A stretch of DNA of 44,397 bases. It comes from Streptosporangium minutum (lineage in GTDB: Bacteria; Actinomycetota; Actinomycetes; Streptosporangiales; Streptosporangiaceae). The translations under genes and the position numbers were made by a program. Shown in pieces: positions 30,595 to 44,397 of this stretch. Where the stretch lies: assembly GCF_002149035.1 (NCBI RefSeq), contig NZ_NGFP01000032.1, positions 1 through 44,397 of the forward strand, written 5' to 3'. How positions within the stretch are numbered: the stretch's first letter is position 1; each line of letters begins with the position of its first letter. The notes beneath the pieces were generated by a model. It ran no database searches. It worked only from the letters and a program-made list of their open reading frames with translations, and was not told where the DNA came from.

Positions 30595-30757
30595 GCGCGA
30601 CGGATCCGGTGAGGACGCGGCAGGGTTGAGCAGCCCTGGCGACGGCCAGTGCTGCCAGGGCCTCGGGCTCGTCGGTGTCGGCCTCCCAGACCAATCGGCG
30701 CAGTAGCGCGTCGCGACGATGCTCGGGGAAGTCGGCGGGTCCCAGCCAGGCGATCAT
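30569..30757 (-). CDS. Small ORF coupled to a resolvase gene
   Basis: A 62-residue frame whose ATG (30755-30757) overlaps the stop of the recombinase fragment as ATGA. It reads DFPEHRRDALLRRLVWEADT, DEPEALAALAVARAAQP and an Arg-rich end. It overlaps the 3' end of the Tn3 transposase on the other strand. It may be a small accessory protein of the transposon; the family is unknown. Confidence 0.4.
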   Translation of the reverse strand: MIAWLGPADFPEHRRDALLRRLVWEADTDEPEALAALAVARAAQPCRVLTGSVALRRPGRRL

Positions 30758-30900
30758 GAGGCTGCTGGCAGGGCGGTGGGGTCGAGAGCACGTGTGGTCT
30801 GGCCGGCGCGCAGTTGCTGCAGGTCGGGGATGTGGTTGTACAACGTCCCTGCTGAGACGCCGAGCAGCTTGGCGATCGAGGTGATCGAGTTCTCCGGGTT
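30754..30900 (-). pseudogene. C-terminal end of a serine recombinase split by the mini-Tn3
   Basis: The minus strand reads NPENSITSIAKLLGVSAGTL, YNHIPDLQQLRAG and stops at 30754-30756: the helix-turn-helix end of a resolvase. It joins the upstream part at 32099-32582 when the element at 30901-32098 and one GGGTT are removed, giving a continuous DMLPNPENSITSIAKLLG. Confidence 0.88.
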
Positions 30901-32098
30901 GGGGTCCCAGTAGTAACCGCCGAAAATCGGGCGGATATAGCTGAATAGGCTTCTGAGCTTGATATCTGTGGGACCGGCTGGAGGTCGTTCTTGGCGACGC
31001 AGGTGTTCGCGGATGAGGATCTGGAGCGGCTGCGGGGATTCCCGGAGATCGGTCGAGACGAGCTGTTCCGGTTCTTCACCCTGACATCAGCTGATGTCGC
31101 GTTCGTCGATCCCGGCCGGGGCCGAGGTCCGGCCGATCGGCTGGGGCTGGCCGTAGCCCTGTCCACGTTGCCGTGGCTCGGATTCGTGCCGGACAAAGTC
31201 TCGGCGGCGCCGCCGGTGGCGGTGGCCAGGCTGGCCGACCAGCTCGCCGTCGACCCAGCCGAACTGCGGTCCTACAAGCGGCGCCAGGCACCCCGCCGCC
31301 GGCGCCGATCCCCGCCGACACCCCGGCCATGGACATCCGCGTCGCCTACGCCCGCTGCTCCCACCTCACCCAGGAACTTCAGTCTCAGCTGGCCGCGCTG
31401 GCCGCGCACGGCATCCCGCGCGAGAAGATCTTCGCCGAGAAGGTATCCACCCGCGTGCGGGTCCGCCCGAAGTTCGAAGCCGCCCTGCAGGCCTGCCGCG
31501 AGATCAAGGCGCACGCCCCGCACTGCCGGGTCATCCTCACCGTGTACGAGATGAAGCGGCTGGGCCGGGACTCGGCCGAGCTGACCGCGCTGGCCGACCA
31601 CCTCACCGCGCACGGCATCGCCTTGGAGATGCTCGCCGGGCCGCTGACCGGGATCTACGACCCGTCCGGCACCGGGCGGGTGCTGTTCGCCTTCTTCGCC
31701 GCGATGGCCGAGACCGAACGCGAGAACATCCGCGAGGCCACCTTGGAAGGCTTGAGTGCCGCAGCCCGCAAGGGAAACCACGGCGGACGTCCGCCGGTGA
31801 TCACCGACGACATGCTGCACACCGTGCTCCGCCGCCGCGTGAACGGCGAGTCGGTGGAGGACATCCGCCCGGACCTGATCATCCCCACCGGCAAGCGCAA
31901 GGGGCAGCACCCTAGCCTGGCTAGCATCTACCGCGCTGGCCGAGCACGAGAAGCGGCAGGCGTATCCCGGGGTCGTAGAGCAGGCCCATGCCGACTTCGC
32001 CATGCTCCAGGCGAGCACCTGATCGGCACGGCCAATCGGCCGCATCATCGCTGGCCAGCGATATCCGCCCGATTTTCGGCGGCAACTACGGCCACCCC
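30901..32098. mobile_element. 1.2-kb mini-Tn3 with 38-bp ends and 5-bp target duplication
   Basis: The ends 30901-30938 and 32061-32098 are inverted copies of 38 bases (33 identical), both starting GGGGT and sharing CCGCCGAAAATCGGGCGGAT. GGGTT flanks the element on both sides (30896-30900 and 32099-32103), the 5-bp duplication expected for Tn3-family transposition. Inside are the first 99 codons of a tnpA and a tnpR gene; about 90 percent of tnpA is deleted. It inserted into a minus-strand recombinase gene. It would move only with transposase supplied in trans. Confidence 0.95.
30991..31287 (+). pseudogene. tnpA: Tn3 transposase N-terminal fragment
   Basis: TTG at 30991 follows GGAGG. The 99 residues include LERLRGFPEIGRDELFRFFT, LTSADVAFVDPGRGRGPADR and VARLADQLAVDPAELRSY, the N-terminal (DUF4158-type) domain of Tn3 transposases. 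After RSYKRRQ similarity stops and the resolvase leader begins, marking the internal deletion. Confidence 0.88.
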
Positions 32099-32144
32099 GG
32101 GTTGGGCAGCATGTCCCGCGCTGCCCGCAGGAGTTCGGGAGTGA
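31329..32144 (+). CDS. tnpR: Tn3-type serine resolvase
   Basis: ATG at 31329. The catalytic domain reads RVAYARCSHLTQELQSQLAA (Ser in the nucleophile position), LTVYEMKRLGRDSAELTALA and FAAMAETERENIREATLEGL, then a helix-turn-helix region RKGNHGGRPPVITDDMLHTV with a longer tail. Note KRLGRDS in place of DRLGRS. Near 31943 two bases (one GC) seem lost: the alternative frame reads YRALAEHEKRQAYPGVVEQA and stops at 32020-32022. The present frame runs 46 bases beyond the transposon end to 32144. The catalytic part is whole, so resolution activity is possible. Confidence 0.82.
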   Translation: MDIRVAYARCSHLTQELQSQLAALAAHGIPREKIFAEKVSTRVRVRPKFEAALQACREIKAHAPHCRVILTVYEMKRLGRDSAELTALADHLTAHGIALEMLAGPLTGIYDPSGTGRVLFAFFAAMAETERENIREATLEGLSAAARKGNHGGRPPVITDDMLHTVLRRRVNGESVEDIRPDLIIPTGKRKGQHPSLASIYRAGRAREAAGVSRGRRAGPCRLRHAPGEHLIGTANRPHHRWPAISARFSAATTATPGWAACPALPAGVRE

Positions 32145-32582
32145 TGACGGTGGGGCGGCCGCCGGTGCGGCCGCGGGCCTTGGCCGCGGCCAGGCCGTCG
32201 CGGGTGCCGACGACGATGAGTTCGCGGATGAACTCGGCGAGGGCGGCGAAGACGTGGAAGATGAGCCGGCCGCCGGGGGGTGGTGTCGAGGTTCTCGTGC
32301 AGCGAGGTGAAGCCGATCTCGCGCTTGCGGAGGTCACCGACCATGGTGATGAGGTCGGCCAGAGAACGGCTGTAGCGATCCAGGGAGGGCACGACCAGTG
32401 TCGCCCTCCTGGAGGAAGACGTGGCACGCCTGGAGCTCGGGCCGGGCAGCGGTCTTGCCGGATTTCTTGTCGGTGAAGACGCGGCGGCATCCGGCTGCTT
32501 TGAGCGCGTCGAGTTGGCGTTCGAGGTTCTGGCCGGCGGTGGAGACGCGGGCGTAGCCGATGCGGATCTCGCTGCGGTGGGC
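32099..32582 (-). pseudogene. N-terminal part of the split serine recombinase, with frameshifts
   Basis: Minus-strand text: [20 protein letters not shown] with the catalytic Ser, then [20 protein letters not shown]; after a shift near 32400, [20 protein letters not shown]; after an extra C near 32275 (run of six instead of five), GRLIFHVFAALAEFIREL and ARGRTGGRPTVITPELLRAA. It is cut at 32099 by the mini-Tn3 and its end is at 30754-30900. The N-terminus is fused in frame to an IS1380-type fragment rather than having its own start. Confidence 0.85.
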
Positions 32583-32915
32583 TTGGCGGACGTTGCCCCA
32601 GGTGAAAGCACGCAAGAAGGAGCCCGGCGTGGACGGCGCGCGCACGCCGTCGAACACGGTGCTCATCCCGCTGTGCCGCAGCACGTCCAGATCGGTGATG
32701 CTGTCGGCGCCGCAGGCCATCCCGGCCACGATCGCGCTGACCTTGGCTTCAGCGTGGGCGCCGTCCGGGGCGGCCAGGGCCACCCGCTCACCGGCCAGCC
32801 GCTCCAGCCCGCACCGCTCGGCCAGCCGCATCACCGGGGCCAGCCCACCGTAGGCGATCACGTGCTCATCGTCGAAGATCGCATGCGTACGGCTGGCGGC
32901 GTGGGAGAATCGCAC
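32583..32915 (-). pseudogene. IS1380-family transposase N-terminal fragment
   Basis: ATG at 32915. The 111 residues read [20 protein letters not shown], then [40 protein letters not shown] and [14 protein letters not shown], the N-terminal part of an IS1380 transposase before its DDE core. It passes without a stop into the recombinase sequence, so a recombination joined the two. The rest of the IS is absent. It borders the RiPP cluster. Confidence 0.8.
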
Positions 32916-33057: not shown

Positions 33058-33801
33058 TCAGGCCTGTGGCGCGGCCTTCCACGCGGGCCAGCGCTGCTCG
33101 ACCGGGCGGGGCAGGTCGGCGGCGTACCACGTGCGCAGCGGCACCGGCACCGGATTCGACCGCTCGGCCGGCACCGGCGTGTCGGTCAGCTGTGCCAGGG
33201 CCTCGTGGTCGGCGGCTTCGGTCGCCAGCCGTGCGTTGCTGACCATCGGGCTCGGCCACCAGTTGATCGGCATGCTGGTGCGGACCTGCTGCGCGTGCTC
33301 GCGGCTGGGCAGCACCGCGTGTACGGCGTCGCCCCGGGCGACCACGAACCGGTTGCGGCGCGGCGCGATGGTCCACGCGCGTTCGAGGCGGCGGGGGACG
33401 AGCGCCGCGCCCTCCTGGTCGCAGACCTGGGAGGAGAAGATGGTCGCTCCACCCGCATCGCTGAGGTAGAGGATGCTGGCGGCGGCCGGCGGCCGGACGA
33501 CGCCGTCGCGCATGAACAGCGCCTCGTCCTTGTCGACGTGCCAGGGCTGGAAGTGGTAGGCGGGGGCTCGGCGGACCCACCACTCGACTCCGGCGTCGGG
33601 CCGTTCGAGCTGGGGGAGTCCGACCAGCGCCTTCAGGTGGCGTAGGACGGTCGCGATGAGCGGCGGCTCGGGTGCGTCGAGGCCGGTCCAGAAGGACAGC
33701 GTGCGGTTCGGCAACACGGCGGCCGCGACGCTGAGCACTTCGAGCAGCGCCGGGGGCAGCACATCGTCGAAGACACGCGGAGCGAACGGATCGACATCCA
33801 T
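33058..33801 (-). CDS. 2-oxoglutarate/Fe(II) oxygenase, prolyl 4-hydroxylase-like
   Basis: A 247-residue protein. The iron facial triad fits His88 and Asp90 (WHVDKDEALF) and His161 (GDAVHAVLP), with an Arg/Lys-rich segment beside the second His for 2-oxoglutarate; SILYLSDAGGATIF is the usual central strand pair. P4H-like enzymes hydroxylate proline or other residues; the precursor peptide 0.5 kb away has two prolines in its C-terminal ten residues. The ATG (33801) overlaps the stop of the upstream 120-residue gene as TGATG, so the two are coupled. The pair is transcribed away from the precursor. It ends about 140 bases from the IS1380 remnant at the cluster border. Confidence 0.78.
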   Translation of the reverse strand: MDVDPFAPRVFDDVLPPALLEVLSVAAAVLPNRTLSFWTGLDAPEPPLIATVLRHLKALVGLPQLERPDAGVEWWVRRAPAYHFQPWHVDKDEALFMRDGVVRPPAAASILYLSDAGGATIFSSQVCDQEGAALVPRRLERAWTIAPRRNRFVVARGDAVHAVLPSREHAQQVRTSMPINWWPSPMVSNARLATEAADHEALAQLTDTPVPAERSNPVPVPLRTWYAADLPRPVEQRWPAWKAAPQA

Positions 33802-34163
33802 CAGGCGCTTCCCCAGGAGCATCGTTCGGCCAGCGCCGTGCGCACGACGCCGAGCCGTTCCAGTGTCGTGAGCGCGTCGGCCAGCTGAGAGAAGGGGACG
33901 GACAGCTCCCGTGCCAGGTCGCCCGCGGCGCGCGGCGGCCGCGCGGCAAGGTGCCCGGCCAGGGCGGTCGACCACAACGCACCCCGGATCCGGCCGACAA
34001 CGGTCCCGGCGCGGACGATCTCGACACCGTCGGCGTCGGCCTTCAGCACGACGCCCTCGGATAACACCGGCTCGTCCTGCGGCACCCAGTCATGATAGGG
34101 CGACGCGACCTCTTCGATCCGGTCCAATGCCCAGAGTTCTGGCACGCCAGCATGACCCACCAT
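33801..34163 (-). CDS. Small winged-helix / PqqD-RRE-like protein of the RiPP cluster
   Basis: A 120-residue protein; ATG at 34163 is chosen because AAGGG stands seven bases upstream. The pattern is three strands (VLSEGVVLKADADGVEIVRA) followed by helices with a winged-helix ending (DLARELSVPFSQLADALTTL, ERLGVVRTA). The same plan occurs at the N-termini of the TylF-like and HDO-like proteins in this cluster. In RiPP pathways such domains bind the leader peptide and deliver it to an enzyme, here most likely the coupled 2OG oxygenase. Similarity is structural by eye and would need profile comparison. Confidence 0.6.
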   Translation of the reverse strand: MVGHAGVPELWALDRIEEVASPYHDWVPQDEPVLSEGVVLKADADGVEIVRAGTVVGRIRGALWSTALAGHLAARPPRAAGDLARELSVPFSQLADALTTLERLGVVRTALAERCSWGSA

Positions 34164-34255
34164 GCAACGACCCTTCAGAAGACATGTCAACGTAATTCGT
34201 CCTCGTCGAATGCCGACCTTAACAACGGTCTACCATTCCCGCCAGCCCGTCCCCA

Positions 34256-34284
34256 TTGAATTCGATGTCGGCGGCTGTTAACTT
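34256..34284 (+). promoter_or_regulatory. Promoter of the RiPP precursor operon
   Basis: TTGAAT (34256-34261) and TAACTT (34279-34284) are separated by exactly 17 bases and lie 38 bases before the precursor ATG. This is a good fit to a sigma-70-type promoter in a region that is otherwise AT-richer than its surroundings. Confidence 0.6.
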
Positions 34285-34321
34285 TTGTCAGAATTGTCGT
34301 CCACCCTCGAAAGAGGTATGC

Positions 34322-34450
34322 ATGGCCGAGAATCTGCCTCCCGAGTCCGAGCTTCCCACCCCGGGCACCGACGAAGAGCACGTGCCGTTCACTGTCGAGA
34401 TGATGGAACTCGACAGCAACCCCATCATTCTGCAGCCGAAGTCCTACTAA
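34322..34450 (+). CDS. Putative RiPP precursor peptide
   Basis: A 42-residue peptide starting with ATG at 34322 after AGAGG. Residues 1-22 are acidic and Pro/Glu-rich (MAENLPPESELPTPGTDEEH); then FTVEMMELDSNPII follows, and the end is LQPKSY. There is no cysteine, and the only hydroxyl residues in the second half are Thr24, Ser32, Ser41 and Tyr42. Position (first gene behind a promoter, directly before YcaO), size and acidic start fit a leader plus a short core. The cleavage site is unknown; the hydrophobic NPIILQPKSY end is the best core candidate. An overlapping frame in another phase is a shadow. Confidence 0.75.
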   Translation: MAENLPPESELPTPGTDEEHVPFTVEMMELDSNPIILQPKSY

Positions 34451-34458
34451 CGCTGCGC

Positions 34459-36336
34459 ATGGCGAATTCGTATCCGGACGTCTCCGGATCACATTCCGTG
34501 ACATCCACCGGCAACGATTTCGCCTATCGGCTCGCCCCTTGGGTGGTCACGGCCGTCCGGGGGGCGAGTGCATTTCTCTTGGGCCCGAAGCTTTCACTGC
34601 TCCACCTTGCGACCGCGACGGTCGACGCCTCCGCAATCGCGCAGGCCATAGGCGTCGACAACGCGGTGGGCGCGGGTTTTATCGAGCCCCGCGCACCCGC
34701 CGATGATGTCGACCCGGACGACTCCGGGCCCGACGCGCCGGTGACGGGCGTACTCGTGCGCGGCGCTGGCGTGCCGGCCCGCGCGTGCGCCGAGCTGGCC
34801 CGCCGGCTGACCGCCGCCGGGCAGGGCCGGTGGGCGCTCGGGCGGCCGCCGTTACCGGGCACCTTGGTCCTGATCATCACGCATCGCCGGGCGGCCCACG
34901 ACGCACTGGCCCGCACCCTGCCCACGGGCCGGCTCCTGAGCGTGGGCGAGTCTTTCGAGGGTCTGTACGTGACCGGCCCCAGGCCGCTCACCGAGCGCGG
35001 ACTCGCCGGACCCGGACCCGATCGGCGCTGGGCGTTCGAGCACCGGCTCGCCGGACTCGGCCTGCACGACCGCCCCTCCACGACGCTGTGGCAGTTGCGC
35101 ACCGACCCGGACGGCCTGGTCCGCGCCGTGTTGGCCGCGGCCCGCCGCACCGCGGACGACGCCGTCCTCGCCGGCACCGGGCGGCAGGTCTCCTTCGCCA
35201 CTCCCGCCGCCGTGCGCCGCACGGTCTTCCGCGATGTGCCGGACACGCAGGCGTGGACGTTCGGGATGGTGCGCGGGCTGAAGGTCCGGCCAGGGGCGGT
35301 CGTCGGCAGCCACATCGCCACCTGCCGGACCCCCGCCGCCGGCCAGGACCACCTGGAGGGCAACAGCGGCAAGGGGACCGACGCGCGGAGCGCGGTGACC
35401 GGCGCGGTCGGTGAGGCCGTCGAACGGTACGCGGCCTACGAGGCCAACTGGAGTCTGCCGCCGGCGGCCGCGACGTCACCCCGGGTTGATTTGTCGCAGT
35501 TCCATCCGTACGGCGACGCCTGGGACAACGATCCGGCACCCACGGCCGACTACGTCGACGGCACGGACCTGGCCGGCCACGGCACCGTCGCCGTGCCCAA
35601 GGCCCTGGTCGCATTCCCCTACGTCGGTGCCAACCGGCCCACCTACGGCGGCACGACCGGTCTCGCGGCGGCGCCGGACGTCGCGGACGCCACCCTGCGC
35701 GGCCTGCGCGAGGTGCTCGAGCGCGACAGCCTCTACCACCACTTCACCGGGATGCGACCCGCGCACCGGCTGGACGGCGCGGCCTCCCTGCGCCGCCTCG
35801 GCCTGGCCGGCGCCTTCCGCGGCGACCTCTGGATCCTGCACTGGCCGAACCGGAAATACCTCATGCCCGACGTGCACGCCTTCCACCACGACCCGCACGC
35901 CGGGCTACTCGTGCGCTCCAGCGGCTCCGGCCTGACCTTCGACGAGGCCGTCGACTCGGCGATGCTGGAGCTCTGCCAGGTCCACCACGAGGGCGTGCGC
36001 GCACACCGCGCGGGCGCCGCGACGAGCTCCGTGCACGCGCGGTGGCGGCAGCCGTCCGTCATCGACGAGTGCCGCCGGTACCTGGACGCCCAGCGTCCGC
36101 ATGCCGTACCCGAGATGCCCTACCACGACGCGCCCGGACAGCTGGAGCACCTGGTGCGCCGGCTCGCCGCCACGGGCCGCGGGCCGATCACCGTCCGGCT
36201 GCCGCTGCACGGACCCGACTGGACCGTGGTGCGGGTGCTGGTGCCGGGGGCGGCGACCGTACCGTACGCCTCGGCCAGCCGCGGCGGGGCCCGGTTGCCC
36301 ACCGACGCGCCGTGGCGGCACGGCATACCGACCTGA
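34459..36336 (+). CDS. YcaO-domain protein with fused N-terminal TOMM-type domain
   Basis: A 625-residue protein beginning eight bases after the precursor stop. The C-terminal YcaO part (about 270-625) has the ATP/Mg signature GNSGKGTDARSAVTGAVGEA then VERYAAYEA (from residue 301), VPKALVAFPY, TTGLAAAP and LRGLREVLERDSLYHHF. YcaO enzymes phosphorylate a backbone amide oxygen to form azolines, thioamides or amidines. The N-terminal 265 residues are poorly conserved and resemble the partner (E1/ocin-ThiF-like) region of fused TOMM proteins. No SagB-type azoline dehydrogenase is present. The C-terminus ends PWRHGIPT and lacks the PxPxP of azoline-forming YcaOs, so another amide modification is possible. 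Confidence 0.85.
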   Translation: MANSYPDVSGSHSVTSTGNDFAYRLAPWVVTAVRGASAFLLGPKLSLLHLATATVDASAIAQAIGVDNAVGAGFIEPRAPADDVDPDDSGPDAPVTGVLVRGAGVPARACAELARRLTAAGQGRWALGRPPLPGTLVLIITHRRAAHDALARTLPTGRLLSVGESFEGLYVTGPRPLTERGLAGPGPDRRWAFEHRLAGLGLHDRPSTTLWQLRTDPDGLVRAVLAAARRTADDAVLAGTGRQVSFATPAAVRRTVFRDVPDTQAWTFGMVRGLKVRPGAVVGSHIATCRTPAAGQDHLEGNSGKGTDARSAVTGAVGEAVERYAAYEANWSLPPAAATSPRVDLSQFHPYGDAWDNDPAPTADYVDGTDLAGHGTVAVPKALVAFPYVGANRPTYGGTTGLAAAPDVADATLRGLREVLERDSLYHHFTGMRPAHRLDGAASLRRLGLAGAFRGDLWILHWPNRKYLMPDVHAFHHDPHAGLLVRSSGSGLTFDEAVDSAMLELCQVHHEGVRAHRAGAATSSVHARWRQPSVIDECRRYLDAQRPHAVPEMPYHDAPGQLEHLVRRLAATGRGPITVRLPLHGPDWTVVRVLVPGAATVPYASASRGGARLPTDAPWRHGIPT

Positions 36337-36362
36337 CCGACCGACGACGACAAGGGGCCGAA

Positions 36363-37430
36363 GTGAGCACCATCGACGCGTTCCGTGAACTCCAGGACGC
36401 TCTGACCGCCGTCGAGGCGCAGGCCGATGCGGCCGACGACGACCGCTCGGCGCATGCGCTGGCCACGGTCCTCGCGGACTCGACGGCACTCGCCCGGGTG
36501 GACCCGGGCCTGCTCCTCGCGGAGCTGCTGGCGGACCCGCGCGGCTGGCCGGACCAGTCGTGGGAGAACTACTTCGGCAACGCCTGCATCACCGTGGTCC
36601 AGACCGAGACGATCCGGGTCGACGTGCTGTATTGGCTGCAGAACGCCTCTACCCTGCACAAGCACGTGTCGTCCGGGGCGTTCCTGGCGCTCAGCGGCCG
36701 CCGCGTCCACCTCGAGTACGACTTCTCCGCACTCGACGCGCTTGGCGACGGCGTCACGTCCGCGACGCTGGCGGCAACCAGCCGCACCATGATGCGCGCC
36801 GCGTCGGTCGTGCCGATCCTGCCAGCGCTCGTCCACGAGCTCTACTGGATCGAGAAACCGTCGGTGACGGTAGCGGTGCGACGCGCACCCGCGGCGGGCG
36901 GGCCCGCGCATCGGCCGCACGAGTTCATCGGCCCCGGCACCGGGTACCTGCCCGCCGCCTTCCACCGCACGTCCAACGTCCAGCGATGGATCGACGGGCT
37001 GGGCATGCTGCGCCGCGCGAGCCGGCCGCTGTACTGGCGGACGCTCGAGCAGGCGATGGCCGTGGTGGACCCGATCCACCTCATCCACGTGCTCGACGAG
37101 CTGAGCGACAACCCGCCGGACGAGGTGTCGGCGCTGCTGGAACGCGCCGCCGCGGCCCGCTCCGACGACAGCCTGGCCCGGCTCGCGCCGACGGTGCCCG
37201 AGTTCCGCCGCCGGAAGGTCTTCTCCCGCGTGTTCGCCCCCAGCACCGATGCGCAGCTACTGGCCGCCCTGCTGTGGGCCGGTGCGGAGGGCGGAGAACT
37301 GGCCGCCTTCCTCAAGGACGAGGGCATCACCGATCCCGACCGGTTCGTCCGTGACCACGGCGAGTCGCTGAGCGCCCGGGATCCGCGCACCGCCCCCTAC
37401 GTCGAGCACGCCAGGCGGTCGCTGCGATGA
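36363..37430 (+). CDS. Cupin-type (cysteine-dioxygenase-like) protein
   Basis: A 355-residue protein with GTG at 36363 after AGGGG. A cupin motif is visible: STLHKHVSSGAFLALSGRRV (His99, His101), similar in pattern to H-x-H...GAF...G of cysteine-dioxygenase-like proteins. A later HEFIGPGTGYLPAAFHRTSN block may supply another ligand. The last 130 residues are helical and acidic and not recognised. It lies between YcaO and the JmjC-type gene and overlaps the latter by four bases. A metal-dependent oxidation of the precursor is the natural guess, but catalysis is unproved. Confidence 0.6.
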   Translation: MSTIDAFRELQDALTAVEAQADAADDDRSAHALATVLADSTALARVDPGLLLAELLADPRGWPDQSWENYFGNACITVVQTETIRVDVLYWLQNASTLHKHVSSGAFLALSGRRVHLEYDFSALDALGDGVTSATLAATSRTMMRAASVVPILPALVHELYWIEKPSVTVAVRRAPAAGGPAHRPHEFIGPGTGYLPAAFHRTSNVQRWIDGLGMLRRASRPLYWRTLEQAMAVVDPIHLIHVLDELSDNPPDEVSALLERAAAARSDDSLARLAPTVPEFRRRKVFSRVFAPSTDAQLLAALLWAGAEGGELAAFLKDEGITDPDRFVRDHGESLSARDPRTAPYVEHARRSLR

Positions 37431-38683
37431 GCGGACGACCGGACCTCGCCGCGTTGTGGGAGACCGGGCCCGGCGTGATCGACCCGCCGTGGGACACCGG
37501 CGCCTTCACGGGGGAGCGGCTGTTCGCGCTCGCGTGCACCGCCGCGGCCAGCCGCACGACGCTGCCCGACCCGCAGGACGTGCGGCTCTTCACCGACGAC
37601 AACATCGTCAATCCCACCCAGCTCGCCCCATACCTGCCCGATCGCGAACGGGACAGCGGCTTCGCCGGATACGCCAGCCGTCTGCGCGGTCAGGTGACGT
37701 CCTTCGCGCTGACCATCAACTCGCTCCAGCAGTTCGACTGGGACTTCTGGCGCATCCTGCGCCGCCAGGTCGACGCCGTCCTGGCCGCGACCGGTCCGGG
37801 GTCGGCCGGCGGCGTCGACTGCCATCTCATCGCCTCCGCGTACGGCACCGCGCCGACGCTGATCCACAAGGACACCGCAGGCGTCTTCACCCACGTCATC
37901 AGCGGCACCAAACGCTACTACACGTGGCCCTTCGACGTGTTCGCCCCCATCGCCGGCGCCGAGGCGCTCCAGCGTCAGGTGAACCTGCCCGCGTCGGTGC
38001 GCGTCGAGGACCACCGCGACACAGCCACCGTGGTCGAGGGCGGCGCGGGCACCGTCATGTACTGGCCGTCGGACCGCTGGCACTGTGCGACCTCCGACGG
38101 CGCGGCGACGGTGTCCCTGCACGTGGCGCACTATCAGTGGGACGACCGGCTCGCCACGGTGCTGCGACGGCTGCGCAAGCAGGCCGAGGCCGACCTGGGC
38201 ACCGCCCGGTACCTGGGCGGCACGCCGGGGGAGGCGGGCACCGACCGGGCCGACGCCGTCGAGGCGGCCGTGCGCAAGACCCTGTCCCGCATCCTTGAAG
38301 ACACCGGCCTGGACCTGCAGACGCGCCTCGGCCGACTGCGGCGCCGGACCGCGTCGAACTTCGAGGTGGTGCCGCCGCCGCGGCCGTGCCCCGACCTCGT
38401 GGCCGCCGACCTGCTCACGGTCCCGGACGTGTCGGCCGTGGCGACGCTGGCCGTGGACGACACGACGCACCTCGCGGCCAACGGGCACGTCATGCGCGTA
38501 CGCGGCGGCGGCTGGCTCGACGGATTCCTGGCCGCGCTGGAGCCGGGTGCGGCGCGGACCCTCGCCGGATGGAGCGAGGCGATCCGCGCCGCCGGTGGCC
38601 CGCCGGGCCTGGCCGAGGCCGCGACGCTCGTACGGGAGCTGGTCCGGCGCGGCGCGCTGGACCGGGAAGGGGCGACGCCGTGA
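37427..38683 (+). CDS. JmjC-type 2-oxoglutarate oxygenase with C-terminal winged helix
   Basis: A 418-residue protein starting with ATG at 37427 inside the stop of the cupin gene. The JmjC core has His147-Lys-Asp149 (APTLIHKDTAGVFTHVISGT), KRYYTWPFDVF, and His219 in YWPSDRWHCATSDGAATVSL. The architecture (JmjC, dimerisation helices, C-terminal winged helix around HLAANGHVMRVRGGGWLDGF, LAEAATLVRELVRRGALD) resembles ribosomal oxygenases of the RoxA/YcfD group, which hydroxylate Arg or His. Here, inside a RiPP operon, the likely substrate is the precursor peptide, and the terminal winged helix may act in leader binding. It overlaps the next gene by four bases. Confidence 0.82.
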   Translation: MSGRPDLAALWETGPGVIDPPWDTGAFTGERLFALACTAAASRTTLPDPQDVRLFTDDNIVNPTQLAPYLPDRERDSGFAGYASRLRGQVTSFALTINSLQQFDWDFWRILRRQVDAVLAATGPGSAGGVDCHLIASAYGTAPTLIHKDTAGVFTHVISGTKRYYTWPFDVFAPIAGAEALQRQVNLPASVRVEDHRDTATVVEGGAGTVMYWPSDRWHCATSDGAATVSLHVAHYQWDDRLATVLRRLRKQAEADLGTARYLGGTPGEAGTDRADAVEAAVRKTLSRILEDTGLDLQTRLGRLRRRTASNFEVVPPPRPCPDLVAADLLTVPDVSAVATLAVDDTTHLAANGHVMRVRGGGWLDGFLAALEPGAARTLAGWSEAIRAAGGPPGLAEAATLVRELVRRGALDREGATP

Positions 38684-39663
38684 AGCTGACCGACGGGGCG
38701 TTCGTGGCGGTCAGGGACGGCCGGCTCGTCCTCGGCCACGCCGACCGGCCGTTCACCCTCTGGCAGGTCGATCCGGGCGTCCTGGTTGTACTGGCGGAGA
38801 TCGCGCGCGGCACGACGGCACAGGACCTCCACGAGGCGCTCGCCCCGCTCACCGGGCTCGACCGGAAGGCGGTCGAAACCCTGCTCGGGCACCTGCGCAC
38901 AGCCCGGATCGTCGCCGAAGAACCGGGCGTTGTACTACGTGACGTAAATGCGGAAATTGCCAAGGTCGTTTCCGCCGCTCCCGACCTCGACCAGGACCCC
39001 GACTTCCTCGAGGCCGCCCGGCAGTGCGAGGACCTCACCCTCACCTCGGCCGCCGCGCAGTACGCCCTGTGGTCGGCGGTGGGCCACATCGCCGCCAACG
39101 CGATCCCCGGTGCCGTGGTGGAGTGCGGCGTCTGGCGGGGCGGCAGCATGCTGCTGGCCGCGCTGGCCCTGCTCCACCACCGGGTCGAGGACCGCGACCT
39201 GTACCTGTTCGACACGTTCGACTGGGCCTGGGAACCGGCCGGCGACCGCGACGGCATGGTCGGAGCGGAGGAGCAGACGCTCGGCGCCGAAGCAGCGACG
39301 CCGTCGTACATGTCGACCGGCACCTCCGCCGCCGACATCCACAAACGGATCACCACGGCGGGGTACCCGGGCGCGCGTGTGCACTGCGTGACTGGGTTCG
39401 TCCAGGACACCGTCCCCGGACACGCGCCGGACAGCATCGCACTGCTGCGCCTGGACACCGACCAGTACGAGTCGACCCTGCACGAGCTGCGTGAGCTGTA
39501 TCCGAGAGTGGTGCCGGGCGGCGTGGTCATCGTCGATGACTACGGCAAGCTGAGCGGCGCCACGCGAGCCACCGATGAATACCTCGCCGGACTGGACCGC
39601 CGGGTGCTGCTGCACCGCATCGACACTCAGGGCCGCGTCTTCGTGAAACCCGCGTCTTCATGA
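38680..39663 (+). CDS. TylF-family O-methyltransferase with N-terminal RRE-like domain
   Basis: A 327-residue protein, GTG at 38680 (GTGA overlap). Residues 1-85 are a PqqD-like winged helix: LTDGAFVAVRDGRLVLGHAD, FTLWQVDPGVLVVLAEIARG, VETLLGHLRTARIVAEE. The rest is a macrocin/mycinamicin-type (TylF/MycF) methyltransferase: VVECGVWRGGSMLLAALALL, YLFDTFDWAWEP, ALLRLDTDQYESTLHELREL, GGVVIVDDYGKLSGATRA, with the two metal-binding Asp residues. TylF enzymes methylate sugar hydroxyls; fusion to a peptide-binding domain suggests methylation of a hydroxylated residue on the precursor. Its 3' end lies inside a 17-bp tandem repeat. Confidence 0.85.
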   Translation: MKLTDGAFVAVRDGRLVLGHADRPFTLWQVDPGVLVVLAEIARGTTAQDLHEALAPLTGLDRKAVETLLGHLRTARIVAEEPGVVLRDVNAEIAKVVSAAPDLDQDPDFLEAARQCEDLTLTSAAAQYALWSAVGHIAANAIPGAVVECGVWRGGSMLLAALALLHHRVEDRDLYLFDTFDWAWEPAGDRDGMVGAEEQTLGAEAATPSYMSTGTSAADIHKRITTAGYPGARVHCVTGFVQDTVPGHAPDSIALLRLDTDQYESTLHELRELYPRVVPGGVVIVDDYGKLSGATRATDEYLAGLDRRVLLHRIDTQGRVFVKPASS

Positions 39664-39704
39664 AACCCGCGTCTTCATGAAACCCGCGTCTTCATGAAAC
39701 CCGT
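39637..39704 (+). repeat. Four 17-bp tandem repeats across a gene end
   Basis: GTCTTCATGAAACCCGC occurs at 39654 and 39671, with one-base variants at 39637 and 39688. The stop codon of the TylF-like gene is in the second copy. Each copy holds ATGAAACCC; 17 is not a multiple of three, so changes in copy number would move the stop or the spacing to the next gene. Confidence 0.95.
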
Positions 39705-39719
39705 TGAAAGGTAGGACCG

Positions 39720-40748
39720 ATGTCTGACGTCATTGATTTCGCGGTACGCCCGCGGTTCAGCGACCGCGCGTCCCTGACCGTCGACGACGGCGTGGTGCGC
39801 ATCGAGGACGGCACGTACCGCGCCGAGTTCTCGGCGCGCACCGCCGAAACCCCGGACCTGACGCGGCTGGCGCACGGCGTGCCGCCGCAGCAGCTGCTGT
39901 CGGAGGTGCGCGGCTGGCTCGAATGCGACGAACGGGAGGCGCGCGCGGCTGTCCAGCGGCTGTTCAGCACCGGCCTGCTGGTGGACCCAGACGCCGCCCA
40001 GCAGGAGCACGTGCCCGGGGCGTACGTGGCGTGCCGGCTGCTCGACGTGTTCCGCCGCCGGTTCCCGGCCGCGGTCCGCGACGCGCCTCTGCTGCGCGCC
40101 CTGGCAGAAGGCCCGAACCCGGGACTCGCGCTCGGGTTCCTGGCGGAGACCTACTTCGTCGTACGGACCGCCCGCTGGTCCAGCGAGCCGGTGTTCCGGC
40201 ACGACATGACCGGCGCCCAGCGCGCGGCACTGGAGGACTTCCGCAACTCGGAGTCCGGCCACGGTGAACTGCTGCTGAGCGGCTTCAACGCCGCCGGCCT
40301 CGACGTCGAGGCCCTGCGCCGGGCGCCGGAGGCTATCGAGACGATGGCCTACAGCCACGCCTACGGCGCCTTCGCCTGGCAGGGTGTGGCGCAGTTCGCG
40401 GCGGCGCTCGTGCTGCCCGAGGTGCCGGCGCCACGGCCCGGCGGGGTGCGAACGGGCGACGACGTGCTGGACCTGCTCGCCCGTGACCACGGCGTGCCGG
40501 ACCACCTGATCAAGGTGTTCCGCGCGCACGAGGACGACGACGTCGAGGGCGACCACGCGGGGCTGCCCGCGTTGCTGCTGTCCGAGGAGCGTCACCTCAC
40601 GCCAGCCGTCGTGGAGCATCTGTTCGTCATCCTGCGGCAGATGATCGACCTGTACCGGGGACACCTCGACGCGGTGCACCGGCGGTACGCGCGATGGGTC
40701 CCCGACGCGGTGGCGCCACGGCTGCCCGACAACGCATTCCGGGTCTGA
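39720..40748 (+). CDS. Heme-oxygenase-fold diiron (HDO/PqqC-like) enzyme with N-terminal RRE-like domain
   Basis: A 342-residue protein, ATG at 39720 after AAAGGTAGG. The first 95 residues are a PqqD-like domain (LTVDDGVVRIEDGTYRAEFS, LLSEVRGWLECDEREARAAV, QRLFSTGLLVD). The remainder is a helical TenA/PqqC/HDO-type domain with candidate metal ligands in FLAETYFVV, DFRNSESGHGELLLSGF and EDDDVEGDHAGL (Glu, Glu, His, Asp, His in the usual order). HDO enzymes use two irons and oxygen for N-oxygenation, C-C cleavage or desaturation. In this cluster it likely oxidises the precursor. The 56-base gap upstream contains the end of the tandem repeats. Confidence 0.75.
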   Translation: MSDVIDFAVRPRFSDRASLTVDDGVVRIEDGTYRAEFSARTAETPDLTRLAHGVPPQQLLSEVRGWLECDEREARAAVQRLFSTGLLVDPDAAQQEHVPGAYVACRLLDVFRRRFPAAVRDAPLLRALAEGPNPGLALGFLAETYFVVRTARWSSEPVFRHDMTGAQRAALEDFRNSESGHGELLLSGFNAAGLDVEALRRAPEAIETMAYSHAYGAFAWQGVAQFAAALVLPEVPAPRPGGVRTGDDVLDLLARDHGVPDHLIKVFRAHEDDDVEGDHAGLPALLLSEERHLTPAVVEHLFVILRQMIDLYRGHLDAVHRRYARWVPDAVAPRLPDNAFRV

Positions 40749-40753
40749 GTCGC

Positions 40754-41494
40754 GTGACGACGACGAGCTTCTATGATGGCCTCCTCGGGACCGTGTACGC
40801 CAATGCCATTGCCGATCAACGTTTCGTTGAGGACGACGTGTTCACCCAACTGGTCGCCGACGCCGACGGCCCAGCCCTGGAGCTGGGCAGCGGAACCGGA
40901 CGCCTGACGCTGCGCCTGCTCGCCGCCGGGCACGACGTCGAAGGACTGGAGATCTCCGATGAGATGACCGACGTGTGCATCGCCGAGGCGAGCCGCCTCG
41001 GGCTGCGCCCGGTGGTGCATCGCGGCAGCTTCGCGCCGCTCGACGCGTCGCTGCGCGGATACGCGATGATCTTCTGCCCGCTCAACGCGTTCAGCTTCAT
41101 CGTGGACGACGCCGCCGCCATGACCGCGGTGCACAGCTACGCGGCCGCACTCAAGCCCGGCGGCGTCCTCGCGCTCGCCGGTTCGGCCGGCGAGAACGCG
41201 CTGCGCGACGGCACCGGCTGGACGAGGCGCCCCGACGTCCAGGTCGCCGAGGCCACACTCGCGCAGGTCGAGGAGCGACGGACCCCCGACGACGACGGCC
41301 GGTGCCTGCGGATCGAGCGGGTCATCCGGATCGTCGGCCCCGACGGAACCGTACGGCAGACGCAACGCGGGACACAGCTGCGGCGGTTGCGCCCCATCGC
41401 CGCGCTCGCCCAGATGTTCGCGGGTGCGGGGCTCGGAGCGCTGCACGCCTACGGCAACGACGCCGACTACATTCTCACCGGGCGCAAAGGATGA
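40754..41494 (+). CDS. SAM-dependent methyltransferase (class I)
   Basis: A 246-residue protein; GTG at 40754 lies five bases after the preceding stop, and similarity starts with SFYDGLLGTVYANAIADQRF. The SAM site is ALELGSGTGRLTLRLLAAGH followed by DVEGLEISDEM; later blocks are IFCPLNAFSFI and ALKPGGVLALAG. This is the general small-molecule methyltransferase fold and says nothing about the acceptor. Within the operon it would methylate the peptide, for example at its end or a side chain. Its stop overlaps the exporter start (ATGA). Confidence 0.85.
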   Translation: MTTTSFYDGLLGTVYANAIADQRFVEDDVFTQLVADADGPALELGSGTGRLTLRLLAAGHDVEGLEISDEMTDVCIAEASRLGLRPVVHRGSFAPLDASLRGYAMIFCPLNAFSFIVDDAAAMTAVHSYAAALKPGGVLALAGSAGENALRDGTGWTRRPDVQVAEATLAQVEERRTPDDDGRCLRIERVIRIVGPDGTVRQTQRGTQLRRLRPIAALAQMFAGAGLGALHAYGNDADYILTGRKG

Positions 41495-42726
41495 ACTCCA
41501 CCACTATGTCCACCGATGTCGCCCAAGCTCGCCGAGGTGCGGCCGCTGTCTTCCTCGTCGCGGTGTTCGTCTCGGCCGTCGGCGACGAGATCGCCGCCAT
41601 CGCGGTCATGTTTCACCTCGCCGAGACCGGGCAGTCATTCCTCGTCGCCGCGCTGCTGGTGCTGCAGCTGGTGCCCGCCGTACTGCTGGCGCCGCTGGCC
41701 GGCCAGCTGCTCGACCGGCGCGACGCCGGGCGGATGCTCGCCCTGGTGTCCGGGGTGCAGGCCGTCGTCGTGCTGGCCATGAGCGCCTGGCCGAACACGG
41801 CCGTCCTGCTCGGCGGCTCGACGCTGGTCGGCCTGTGCGCGGCCGTGTCCACCCCGGCGGCGATCGTGCTGATCCCCCTGCTGGCCGGCGAGGCCTTCCC
41901 GACCCGGGCCAACGGACTGCTGGAGGTCAGCCGCTCCGCGTCCACGCTCGCCGGGCCGGTCATCGGCGGCGTGCTGGTGGCAAGCGTCGGGGTACGGCCG
42001 GCGCTGCTGGCCGACGCCGTGTCCTTCGCCCTGGCCGCGGCGGCGATCGTGCTCATCAAGGTGCGCCGCCCGGTCAACGACGACGGCAAGGTGTGGTGGA
42101 CGGGCGCCACCGACGGCATCAAGTTCCTGGCCCGCCAGACCGAGCTGCGCACCGTCCTGCCGATCGTGATCATCACCGTGTCGGCCAGCTCGATGGTCAA
42201 CGTGGCATTGGTGTTCTTCGTCAAGGGGCCCCTGCAATCGGGCGCCACGGCCCTGGGCGTGCTGACCGCGGCGTGGGGGGTCGGCGCACTGGTTGGCGCC
42301 GCCCTCGGATCCCGCCGCGAGTTCCGGGTTCCCGAGCGTGTCGTGTTGATCGGCGCCGGCGTCATGGGCGTGGCGATCCTCGCGTACGGACTTGTCAGCG
42401 TTGTCGTGCTCGCGGTCGTCGCCGCGCTGGCGGCGGGCGCGGCCAACGCCTACCAGAACATGGGCATGCGTACGGCGGTGCAGATCCGCACCCCGAATGA
42501 GCTGCTGGGCCGCGCGCACGCCGCCGCGGGTTCGATCATCAACTCGTTCTTCCTGGTCGGTTTTGTGCTCGGCGGCATCTTCGCCGCGAGGGACCCCCGC
42601 GCCACGTTCGTGGTCGCCGGCGTGGTCACGGTGGTGGCCGCCGCCGTCGGTCTCGTGCTCATGGCCGCTCGGCGGGCGCCTGCGCCGCAGGACGACGCCG
42701 CCGTACCCCAGGGAGATCGTGAGTGA
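41491..42726 (+). CDS. MFS transporter, probable RiPP exporter
   Basis: A 411-residue integral membrane protein with ATG at 41491. It has about eleven to twelve hydrophobic segments, the conserved loop LAGQLLDRRDAGRML between helices 2 and 3 (the G-x-L-x-D-R motif), and the pattern of the MFS_3 (enterobactin exporter-like) group, including GLLEVSRSASTLAGPVIGGV. It is embedded between biosynthetic genes with overlaps on both sides (4 bases each), so it most likely exports the finished peptide and may give self-protection. Confidence 0.88.
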   Translation: MNSTTMSTDVAQARRGAAAVFLVAVFVSAVGDEIAAIAVMFHLAETGQSFLVAALLVLQLVPAVLLAPLAGQLLDRRDAGRMLALVSGVQAVVVLAMSAWPNTAVLLGGSTLVGLCAAVSTPAAIVLIPLLAGEAFPTRANGLLEVSRSASTLAGPVIGGVLVASVGVRPALLADAVSFALAAAAIVLIKVRRPVNDDGKVWWTGATDGIKFLARQTELRTVLPIVIITVSASSMVNVALVFFVKGPLQSGATALGVLTAAWGVGALVGAALGSRREFRVPERVVLIGAGVMGVAILAYGLVSVVVLAVVAALAAGAANAYQNMGMRTAVQIRTPNELLGRAHAAAGSIINSFFLVGFVLGGIFAARDPRATFVVAGVVTVVAAAVGLVLMAARRAPAPQDDAAVPQGDRE

Positions 42727-43847
42727 TCGCCTCCTCGCACCGCGGCGGCGTCAGTGCCGCGGTGCGTGTGCTGCCCGACAGCCTCTACAGCGCGATCTGC
42801 GTGGTGGTGGCCCGCGGCTACCTTGACGACCCGCCGTCCGGCGCGGGTCTGGCCCATCTGTTCGAACACGTGTGGTTCGCGCACGGGCTCGACGTGCCGA
42901 CCGTCGAGTGGGGTGAGACCCGCGAGCACGCCGTCGTGCTGCACCACGTGTGCCCGCCGGACGAGGTTCCGGCGGTCGTCTCCGCCCTGGCGCGGCGGCT
43001 TCACCGCTGCCGCGCCGCCCCGCCCGAGGCGATGGCGCCGCGCGTCGCGGCCGCGCTGAAGCTCATCGCGCTGGAACGGCGGACCGGACGGGAGCGGCGG
43101 GTCTTCGGGTTCCCGCGCCGCGACATCGCCCGGGCGTTGCGCGGCGATCCCGACTTCGATCCGGTCGCCGTCGACACCGACGGTCTGCGGCTCGACGGCA
43201 TCACCTCGTTCCTGACCGGGCACCGCCTCGCCGTGTGCGTCGCGGGACCGCAGGCGTCGCCCTCACCCGGGGAACTGCTGGCCGCCTTCGCCGTACCGAC
43301 TGACCAGGGCGGGACGGTGAGCGCGCTGGCGCCGGCACTGACAGGCGGCTGGTCCGTCGCCACCGAGGACGTCGAGGCGCGCGCCACCGCCTGGCTTCTT
43401 CCGTCCACCGTGGACGTCGCGGCAGCGGCCTGGCTCGCCACCGGGCTGATCGAGCGATGCCCGCCACCGGCCGGGCTGCGGTGGGTGTCGGGACGGGTCG
43501 TCTCCCCGTTCGGCACGGCGGCGGTGCGCGGCGGTCACCTGTTCGCGGTGGCCGCCGGCCTGGCGGACGGACCCGCCGCGGACCTCGTCCACGATCACCT
43601 GCTCCCGCTGCTGCGCGGTGACCTGGCGCAGTTCGACGCGGTGCGCGCCGCCACCGACGCGACCCGGATCGAGGCCACCGACCAGGCCGCCATCGACGCG
43701 ATCGATCTGATCGGCCCGGCGATCGGTCACGACGCGGTACGGCAGGCGGTCCGCGAGGCGTCGACGGCCACGATGCGGGACTTCGCCGAGCTGCTCGCCA
43801 CAAGCCCGCACGCGGAATTCCGCGCACACGCCGGGTCGCGGCGGTGA
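42723..43847 (+). CDS. M16-family zinc metallopeptidase
   Basis: A 374-residue protein with GTG at 42723. The inverted zinc motif HxxEH is present as GLAHLFEHVWF (His45, Glu48, His49), preceded by VVVARGYLDDPPSG as in the insulinase/processing-peptidase family. The downstream Glu ligand is probably among EAMAPRVAAALKLIALE. At 374 residues it is one M16 unit; such proteases work as pairs, and the next overlapping gene may be the partner. In RiPP pathways (PqqF/G, AlbE/F) M16 pairs remove or degrade leader peptides, so that role is likely here. Confidence 0.82.
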   Translation: MIASSHRGGVSAAVRVLPDSLYSAICVVVARGYLDDPPSGAGLAHLFEHVWFAHGLDVPTVEWGETREHAVVLHHVCPPDEVPAVVSALARRLHRCRAAPPEAMAPRVAAALKLIALERRTGRERRVFGFPRRDIARALRGDPDFDPVAVDTDGLRLDGITSFLTGHRLAVCVAGPQASPSPGELLAAFAVPTDQGGTVSALAPALTGGWSVATEDVEARATAWLLPSTVDVAAAAWLATGLIERCPPPAGLRWVSGRVVSPFGTAAVRGGHLFAVAAGLADGPAADLVHDHLLPLLRGDLAQFDAVRAATDATRIEATDQAAIDAIDLIGPAIGHDAVRQAVREASTATMRDFAELLATSPHAEFRAHAGSRR

Positions 43848-44397
43848 GCGCCTGGGAGCGCCGCGACGGCAACCGCAGCGTGCGGTACGTGCACACCGGT
43901 GACCCGCAGCCGCGCGTGCACCTGCGCGCGGACAGCGCTCCGCCGGACGGGCCCGCCGTCCAGCTCATCCACGACGCGCTGACCCTCCCAAGGGTCTGGA
44001 CCTTCGGCGCCCGGCTCGGCGCGGCCGCCCCCCTCGTCGACCACGGCCGCGTCATCGGCGTGGACGTGACGGTAACGGCGCTCGACCCGACCTGCGTCTG
44101 GGAGCAGGCGGCGCGCCTGCACGACGCCGTACGACCGGCTCCCGTGCCTGCCGAGCGGGCCGGGCGCGCGCTGGAGCGGGCCGCCGCCGCGTCCGTCGAA
44201 ACCTCGCATCACCTCGCAACCCTGGCCACGCTCTTCGCCCGGCCCACAGGCCCTGGCCGGATCCATGCGGGGCAGCTCGTCGCCGACGTCGTGCGCGCCG
44301 CCCGGCGGCTGCTCGAGGAGCCCGCGGCCGTGCCGGTCGGCGTGGCCGTCACCGCGGCGCTCGGGCCGGACGCCGTGGCGTGCGGCGAAGATCCGGT
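43844..44397 (+). CDS. Possible second M16-like subunit, partial
   Basis: GTG at 43844 overlaps the preceding stop (GTGA). The 184 visible residues run off the window. They contain SVRYVHTGDPQPRVHLRADS, LPRVWTFGARLGAAAPLVDH, an Ala/Arg-rich helical stretch and a new strand VPVGVAVTAALG. No HxxEH is seen. Position and coupling suggest the non-catalytic partner of the M16 peptidase, but similarity is weak and another function is possible. Confidence 0.55.
   Translation, partial: MSAWERRDGNRSVRYVHTGDPQPRVHLRADSAPPDGPAVQLIHDALTLPRVWTFGARLGAAAPLVDHGRVIGVDVTVTALDPTCVWEQAARLHDAVRPAPVPAERAGRALERAAAASVETSHHLATLATLFARPTGPGRIHAGQLVADVVRAARRLLEEPAAVPVGVAVTAALGPDAVACGEDP

Follow-up and report, generated by a model that had tools for sequence, protein, structure and literature searches.

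A putative ribosomal peptide gene cluster of Streptosporangium minutum with a YcaO protein and a cysteine-dioxygenase-fold cupin

What is made by a compact row of oxidative and methylating enzymes that stands behind a 42-residue open reading frame (ORF) and a YcaO gene? The question is raised by one end of a stretch of DNA from Streptosporangium minutum, here called the window (bases 1-44397 of the 50758-base contig NZ_NGFP01000032.1; the assembly has 9.58 Mb). An earlier note, made from the window's letters, had taken the row for an undescribed cluster for a ribosomally synthesized and post-translationally modified peptide (RiPP). An undescribed RiPP cluster is also supported here as the best reading of the locus: no description was found in the literature searched, one elsewhere or in MIBiG being possible, the core words of the precursors gave no literature match, and the small ORF is conserved beside ycaO. 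Judged from its sequence, the locus almost certainly serves a short, heavily modified ribosomal peptide. The ten genes of the row are the following.

34322..34450, forward strand: precursor peptide of 42 aa with a putative C-terminal core of about PIILQPKSY (precedes ycaO in 5/5 clusters, 13 invariant columns)
34459..36336, forward strand: YcaO, putative ATP-dependent amide-activating enzyme, with an N-terminal extension of about 290 residues (PF02624, E 8e-28)
36363..37430, forward strand: cysteine-dioxygenase-fold cupin with a 3-His site and a C-terminal helical domain (no Pfam match)
37427..38683, forward strand: JmjC-type Fe/2-oxoglutarate (2OG) oxygenase 1, JmjC1 (PF08007, E 0.033, below cut-off; PDB profile matches; triad)
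38680..39663, forward strand: TylF-type O-methyltransferase with a PqqD-like N-terminal domain (PF05711, E 7e-38)
39720..40748, forward strand: candidate heme-oxygenase-like diiron oxidase (HDO) with a PqqD-like N-terminal domain (PF14518, E 3e-5, below cut-off)
40754..41494, forward strand: class I S-adenosylmethionine (SAM) methyltransferase, mt2 (nearest NCBIfam model, daptide-type methyltransferase NF041820)
41491..42726, forward strand: MFS exporter (PF07690, E 1e-25)
42723..43847, forward strand: M16-type metallopeptidase, M16a, with HxxEH intact (PF00675, E 0.018, below cut-off)
43844..45007 (window ends at 44397), forward strand: second M16-type partner, M16b, presumably non-catalytic (position; conservation in 5/5 clusters)

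The order precursor, ycaO, cupin, jmjC1, tylF, hdo, mt2, mfs, m16a, m16b agrees with that given in the earlier note, and the genes lie where it had placed them, with several Pfam matches below cut-off. Its description of a nearly continuous, overlapping operon is also confirmed, with 4-base overlaps at five of the nine junctions and gaps of 8, 26, 56 and 5 bases at the remaining ones. The end that it had set at 44397 is not the end of the cluster: the operon runs on through the M16 partner to contig base 45007, and a second JmjC protein (JmjC2), a regulator and an aldo/keto reductase follow. There is an ambiguous base at contig base 44398, inside the second M16-type gene, which may be the reason why the window ends there.

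The precursor ORF, MAENLPPESELPTPGTDEEHVPFTVEMMELDSNPIILQPKSY, ends 8 bases upstream of ycaO, and this distance is 8 to 14 bases in four clusters. The earlier note had put it behind a promoter; the ORF itself stands, whereas a consensus scan of 33900-34600 returned no sigma-70-like promoter. The bases upstream of the ORF are purine-rich and, by eye, Shine-Dalgarno-like. That the ORF might not be conserved next to the YcaO gene had been named as grounds for giving up the RiPP reading. A small ORF precedes ycaO in all five clusters known to us, and its C-terminal frame ELD-x-x-PI(V/I)LQ-x-K-x-Y is invariant. Thirteen residues are the same in all five precursors (window numbering): M1, F23, V25, E26, E29, L30, D31, P34, I35, L37, Q38, K40 and Y42. 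The C-terminal residue is always Tyr, and Cys is absent from all of the precursors. Over the last 20 codons, the ten precursor pairs have 10-17 identical, 2-5 synonymous and 1-7 nonsynonymous codons, and synonymous changes occur in the C-terminal segment of every pair. The core very probably lies at the C-terminus of the precursor.

Four further clusters, in S. tateyamensis, S. albus NRRL B-1811, a Kitasatospora and Nocardioides zeae, have all ten genes in an identical order, so that the co-occurring homologues in other actinomycetes envisaged by the earlier note do exist. The N. zeae cluster is the most distant, with identities down to 30-41% and partial matches for both M16-type proteins. 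The protein searches scored 8000 candidates and the genome searches the best first-look candidates (3, 5 or 18 per genome; 5 for the cupin profile), and misses are possible in both. Ten proteins matched the YcaO at E <=1e-20, one of them the window's own. The YcaO was found in 1 of 100 relatives and, within the order, in 1 of 345 genomes, both times in the window's genome alone. The counts are 1 of 392 in the genus of genome G101 (G101 itself), 2 of 70 in the genus of G100 (G100 and G835) and 1 of 245 in the family of G102 (G102 itself). The cupin profile matched in 2 of 394 genomes (G100, G835) and in 3 of 367 (G101 plus two distant homologues). The precursor in G835 is identical to P0012, from Kitasatospora sp. 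NBC_01266. Plasmid records gave no YcaO match. In a scan of one genome per species, three of 66 pattern matches were loci of this kind, in S. tateyamensis (L007), S. albus NRRL B-1811 (L008) and N. zeae (L009). The cluster family is rare and scattered. Because of this distribution, together with a neighbouring transposase, horizontal transfer of the family is suggested.

The ATP-site motifs of the YcaO are invariant in 10/10 sequences of alignment A1, which leaves out the YcaO of N. zeae as well as P0001, a row recorded as the protein of the window itself. None of these ten sequences carries a C-terminal PxPxP; they end in GIPT, and the N. zeae protein ends in GIVV. A further alignment, A9, omits P0014 (the window's own) and P0024 (a 207-residue fragment). 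The structure model of the YcaO is poor (mean pLDDT 58.7), and on this basis the N-terminal extension may tentatively be described as a domain resembling a RiPP recognition element (RRE) followed by an E1-like domain. The N-terminus of the S. albus YcaO had no match among PDB sequences. Since the core has no Cys, Ser or Thr shared by all members, the YcaO is expected to use either sulfide or an amine, from Lys40 or ammonia, as its nucleophile. Passages of PMC12338566 and PMC11002830 describe YcaO enzymes that use amines as the nucleophile, including ammonia and N-termini.

Residues 1-198 of the cupin were assigned by hhalign and by a structure model to the fold of cysteine dioxygenase (CDO) and 3-mercaptopropionate dioxygenase, with a 3-His site formed by H99, H101 and H158. 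The identity to the best CDO-type match is about 17%, the profile comparison used 20 CDO_I frames of 35 rows, and nothing convincing was found in Pfam, NCBIfam and PDB sequence searches. The protein called a cupin in the earlier note is present and is more precisely a thiol-dioxygenase-fold protein. Distant members of this cupin family were seen in two other rows of genes. One (L082, 5526-11157) is a different RiPP-like operon with a radical SAM protein, a carbamoyltransferase, the distant CDO-fold cupin and a 2OG oxygenase, in which a 68-residue Cys-containing ORF follows the radical SAM gene. The other (L083, 8628-13962) has a 54-residue ORF, an ORF with an HExxH-like stretch, the distant cupin, a B12-radical SAM gene and an MFS gene. 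As both operons are RiPP-like and hold radical SAM enzymes, this cupin family may be at work, so far unrecognised, in several pathways.

The JmjC triad H147-x-D149...H219 is invariant in 7/7 sequences of alignment A3, which includes the JmjC2 proteins of two other clusters and omits those of the window and of N. zeae. PDB profile matches of JmjC1 include YxbC and a putative asparaginyl hydroxylase (E 0.003). Fusions of JmjC domains to RRE-like domains, with homologues in bacteria that lie in RiPP-like contexts, are mentioned in passages of PMC12710340; this fits the present clusters, which those passages do not describe. The TylF-type protein has NovP and a mycinamicin methyltransferase among its PDB profile matches, and mt2 scores 54.5 bits against the daptide-type model NF041820 (cut-off 175).

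In the HDO candidate the possible ligands E178, H181, E207, E234, H270, D274, E276 and H279 are invariant in all five clusters, which suffices for the set of three His and three carboxylates given in passages of PMC13108848. Four of the five orthologues match PF14518 with E values no higher than 1, the best being 3e-5 and below cut-off. Passages of PMC6511847 concern a YcaO pathway in which VarO, a heme-oxygenase-like protein, was proposed to desaturate the side chain of an Arg residue; by analogy, we infer that Lys40 may be the corresponding target here. At another place in the same genome (G000:C155:10821-12236) two HDO-like frames are adjacent, one above and one below the PF14518 cut-off, and a similar pair is present in G011.

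Compared with the PqqD family (six frames used of ten PqqD rows), the N-terminus of the TylF protein gave a probability of 84.8% and that of the HDO candidate 31.3%, rising to 91.8% for the two combined; the two N-termini resemble each other with a probability of 62%. This supports PqqD-like, putatively peptide-binding domains in the TylF and HDO proteins only, which narrows an earlier, more general mention of RRE-like domains to these two. In the putative catalytic subunit of the M16 pair, HxxEH (H45, E48, H49) and E118 are invariant in 5/5 M16a proteins, PF00675 is matched by all five at E up to 1 (best 2.5e-4), and the PDB profile matches include MPP-beta (E 4e-5) and PqqF (E 9e-4). Of the M16 pair mentioned in the earlier note, M16a is thus upheld, while the second subunit was not detected as an M16 protein.

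A pathway may be proposed from these features. The F-x-V-E-x-x-E-L-D stretch of the peptide would dock on the PqqD/RRE-like domains, and the enzymes bearing PqqD-like domains would act on the leader-bound peptide. With ATP, the YcaO would activate a backbone amide in the C-terminal core PI(V/I)LQ(P/M)K(S/P)Y and form a product other than an azoline, most likely an amidine, with the side chain of the invariant Lys40 or ammonia as the nucleophile. The JmjC enzymes would hydroxylate the peptide, JmjC2 perhaps on Pro39, and the TylF enzyme would methylate a hydroxyl while the leader is still bound. The HDO candidate may desaturate, cleave or oxidise a side chain (Lys40 or Tyr42 being candidates), and the cupin may carry out a further O2-dependent step. 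The M16 pair would release the core, mt2, with no recognised RRE, would cap it after release, and the MFS protein would export the finished peptide.

These steps are not equally secure. Non-azoline chemistry of the YcaO is likely for the family, while an amidine as the specific product is a tentative choice with somewhat less than an even chance. As an overall explanation, a RiPP with all of the proposed enzyme roles falls just short of an even chance. It is also conceivable, though rather unlikely, that the clusters define a new RiPP class. In such a class an enzyme of thiol-dioxygenase fold would work on a Cys-free peptide, by oxygenating a YcaO-made thioamide, perhaps the activated intermediate on the way to an amidine, or by non-sulfur O2 chemistry new to the fold, and a Lys-derived backbone amidine or related heterocycle would lie beside the C-terminal Tyr. 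A core of roughly ten residues seems to be the target of an unusually dense set of modifying enzymes, six of them present in all five clusters and a seventh, JmjC2, in four. It is important to note that the cluster offers a direct test of how a YcaO acts when its core is free of Cys, Ser and Thr, and also of a possible recruitment of the cysteine-dioxygenase fold for the modification of ribosomal peptides.

Several observations weigh against this pathway. Ser41 is present in four of the five precursors, the fold matches of the YcaO include the heterocyclases TruD and LynD (from the low-confidence model), and the best NCBIfam match of the window's YcaO is SagD, at 69.7 bits against a cut-off of 219. 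The start of the N. zeae ycaO is tentative, the nearest later start codon lying 16 bases on, and the second JmjC protein of that cluster, with 35% identity, has no Pfam match. The window's HDO candidate reaches 24.3 bits with PF14518 (cut-off 28.9). No HDO match turned up for it among PDB profiles, and hhalign gave no support (probability <=0.3%) against four sets of HDO-family sequences. These sets drew on 24 picked loci: a frame was obtained from 23, of which 17 distinct ones entered the comparison, 15 of them in set A, among these the sole member of set B. In profile comparison with PqqD, an RRE-like domain was not detected in the JmjC tails, the YcaO N-terminus or the small divergent protein upstream of the precursor, and comparing these with each other gave no support either. 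M16b was not recognised as M16 by Pfam, PDB profiles or hhalign.

The first three of these points would suit a linear azol(in)e-containing peptide (LAP) pathway, in which Ser41 (K-S-Y) is cyclised by the YcaO to an oxazoline, with N. zeae as an exception that has diverged. This is improbable. The N. zeae precursor ends in FEVEIVELDNDPIVLQPKPY, with Pro in the place of Ser41 and its last 20 residues free of Cys, Ser and Thr, and the other nine genes are kept; the YcaO has no PxPxP, the SagD score is far below its cut-off, and no SagB-type dehydrogenase is among the ten cluster proteins scanned with Pfam. Both the N. zeae precursor and the lack of PxPxP led to the rejection of azoline formation as the YcaO reaction shared by the family. 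A backbone thioamide installed by the YcaO, with the sulfur then oxygenated by the cupin, would account for a thiol-dioxygenase fold despite five Cys-free precursors. Among PDB sequences, archaeal MJ1094 matches the YcaO profile best, and the NCBIfam model for McrA-glycine thioamidation matches 10/10 YcaO members, the window's far below the cut-off, both of which favour a thioamide. However, neither TfuA nor an evident sulfur-supply gene is found among the scanned proteins, and the N-terminal extension resembles E1-like heterocyclases in the low-confidence model; we consider the thioamidated peptide as improbable as the oxazoline.

The YcaO might instead be an ATP-dependent peptidase, as in the title of the MusD structure entry (7u58), leaving the chemistry to the other enzymes. 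MusD ranks near the top in both the fold and the sequence comparisons, but a peptidase is already encoded in the operon, the M16-type metalloenzyme with its HxxEH intact, and this explanation is very unlikely. The view that no peptide is made, the small ORF being regulatory or due to chance and the enzymes modifying something else, is scarcely credible in face of an ORF kept in 5/5 clusters with an invariant C-terminal frame, the Shine-Dalgarno-like bases upstream of it and the PqqD-like domains alongside. A RiPP with non-azoline YcaO chemistry is preferred.

The cluster is bordered by the following features.

28711-30594, left of the cluster: Tn3-type transposase
33058..33801, reverse strand: 2OG-Fe(II) oxygenase-like protein, accessory (PF13640, E 1.3e-4, below cut-off)
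33801..34163, reverse strand: small winged-helix, RRE-like candidate protein, accessory (weak helix-turn-helix (HTH) matches only)
44977-46209, reverse strand, beyond the window: JmjC2 (PF08007, E 3e-5, above cut-off)
46206-46955, reverse strand, beyond the window: DUF2087/HTH regulator
46884-47855, forward strand, beyond the window: aldo/keto reductase

The divergent 2OG oxygenase pair of the earlier note is present in the window, and it was found in one cluster of the five: tblastn gave no match in the stretches of the other four (L007-L009 and L015-L021), whose flanks differ in length, and the pair was rejected as a core part on this result. Ile in place of Val36 is likewise seen only in the window peptide, a coincidence in a single case. 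The regulator accompanies all five clusters (32% identity in N. zeae), JmjC2 four and the aldo/keto reductase three. The S. albus cluster has no JmjC2 within contig bases 1 to 40000, and its precursor has Met for Pro39; this single event among five clusters is a lead and not a test of the role of JmjC2. On the left, the transposase and resolvase-like ORFs (window 28711-32915) adjoin the cluster. A 17-base unit, CCGCGTCTTCATGAAAC, is repeated in 4.2 copies with 98% matches at window 39633-39703, a stretch that takes in the 3' end of tylF and the spacer ahead of hdo.

It is of interest to compare this cluster with known systems. As far as passages of PMC6511847 describe it, the thiovarsolin YcaO-TfuA cluster shares a YcaO, a heme-oxygenase-like protein (VarO), an MFS transporter and a short peptide product. 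TfuA was not found among the proteins scanned here, a single short precursor takes the place of the repeats, and the CDO-fold cupin, JmjC, two methyltransferases and the M16 pair are additional. The daptides with YcaO, according to passages of PMC12338566, have in common with it a YcaO in a RiPP with C-terminal core and a related methyltransferase family. They end in Thr, in contrast to the Tyr found here, and the ten proteins scanned include no daptide-type dehydrogenase or aminotransferase; membership in the daptides was rejected on the C-terminal Tyr and the methyltransferase score below cut-off.

The cyanobactin/LAP heterocyclases TruD and LynD share the layout of an E1-like domain and a YcaO domain, as far as the low-confidence model goes, and differ from the present family, which has no PxPxP, one member whose core lacks Cys, Ser and Thr, and no SagB-type dehydrogenase among the ten proteins. 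The biosynthesis of pyrroloquinoline quinone (PQQ) also uses a short precursor, PqqD-like domains, an M16 peptidase and an oxidase of heme-oxygenase fold. The present cluster resembles it in these points, with a PqqF profile match of the peptidase and a candidate for the oxidase. However, the precursor is different, no radical SAM protein is among the cluster proteins scanned, and a YcaO, methyltransferases and an exporter are added here. The fold and the 3-His site of the cupin are common to cysteine dioxygenase and 3-mercaptopropionate dioxygenase, whereas the cupin has an extra C-terminal helical domain and its substrate is presumably a peptide without a thiol.

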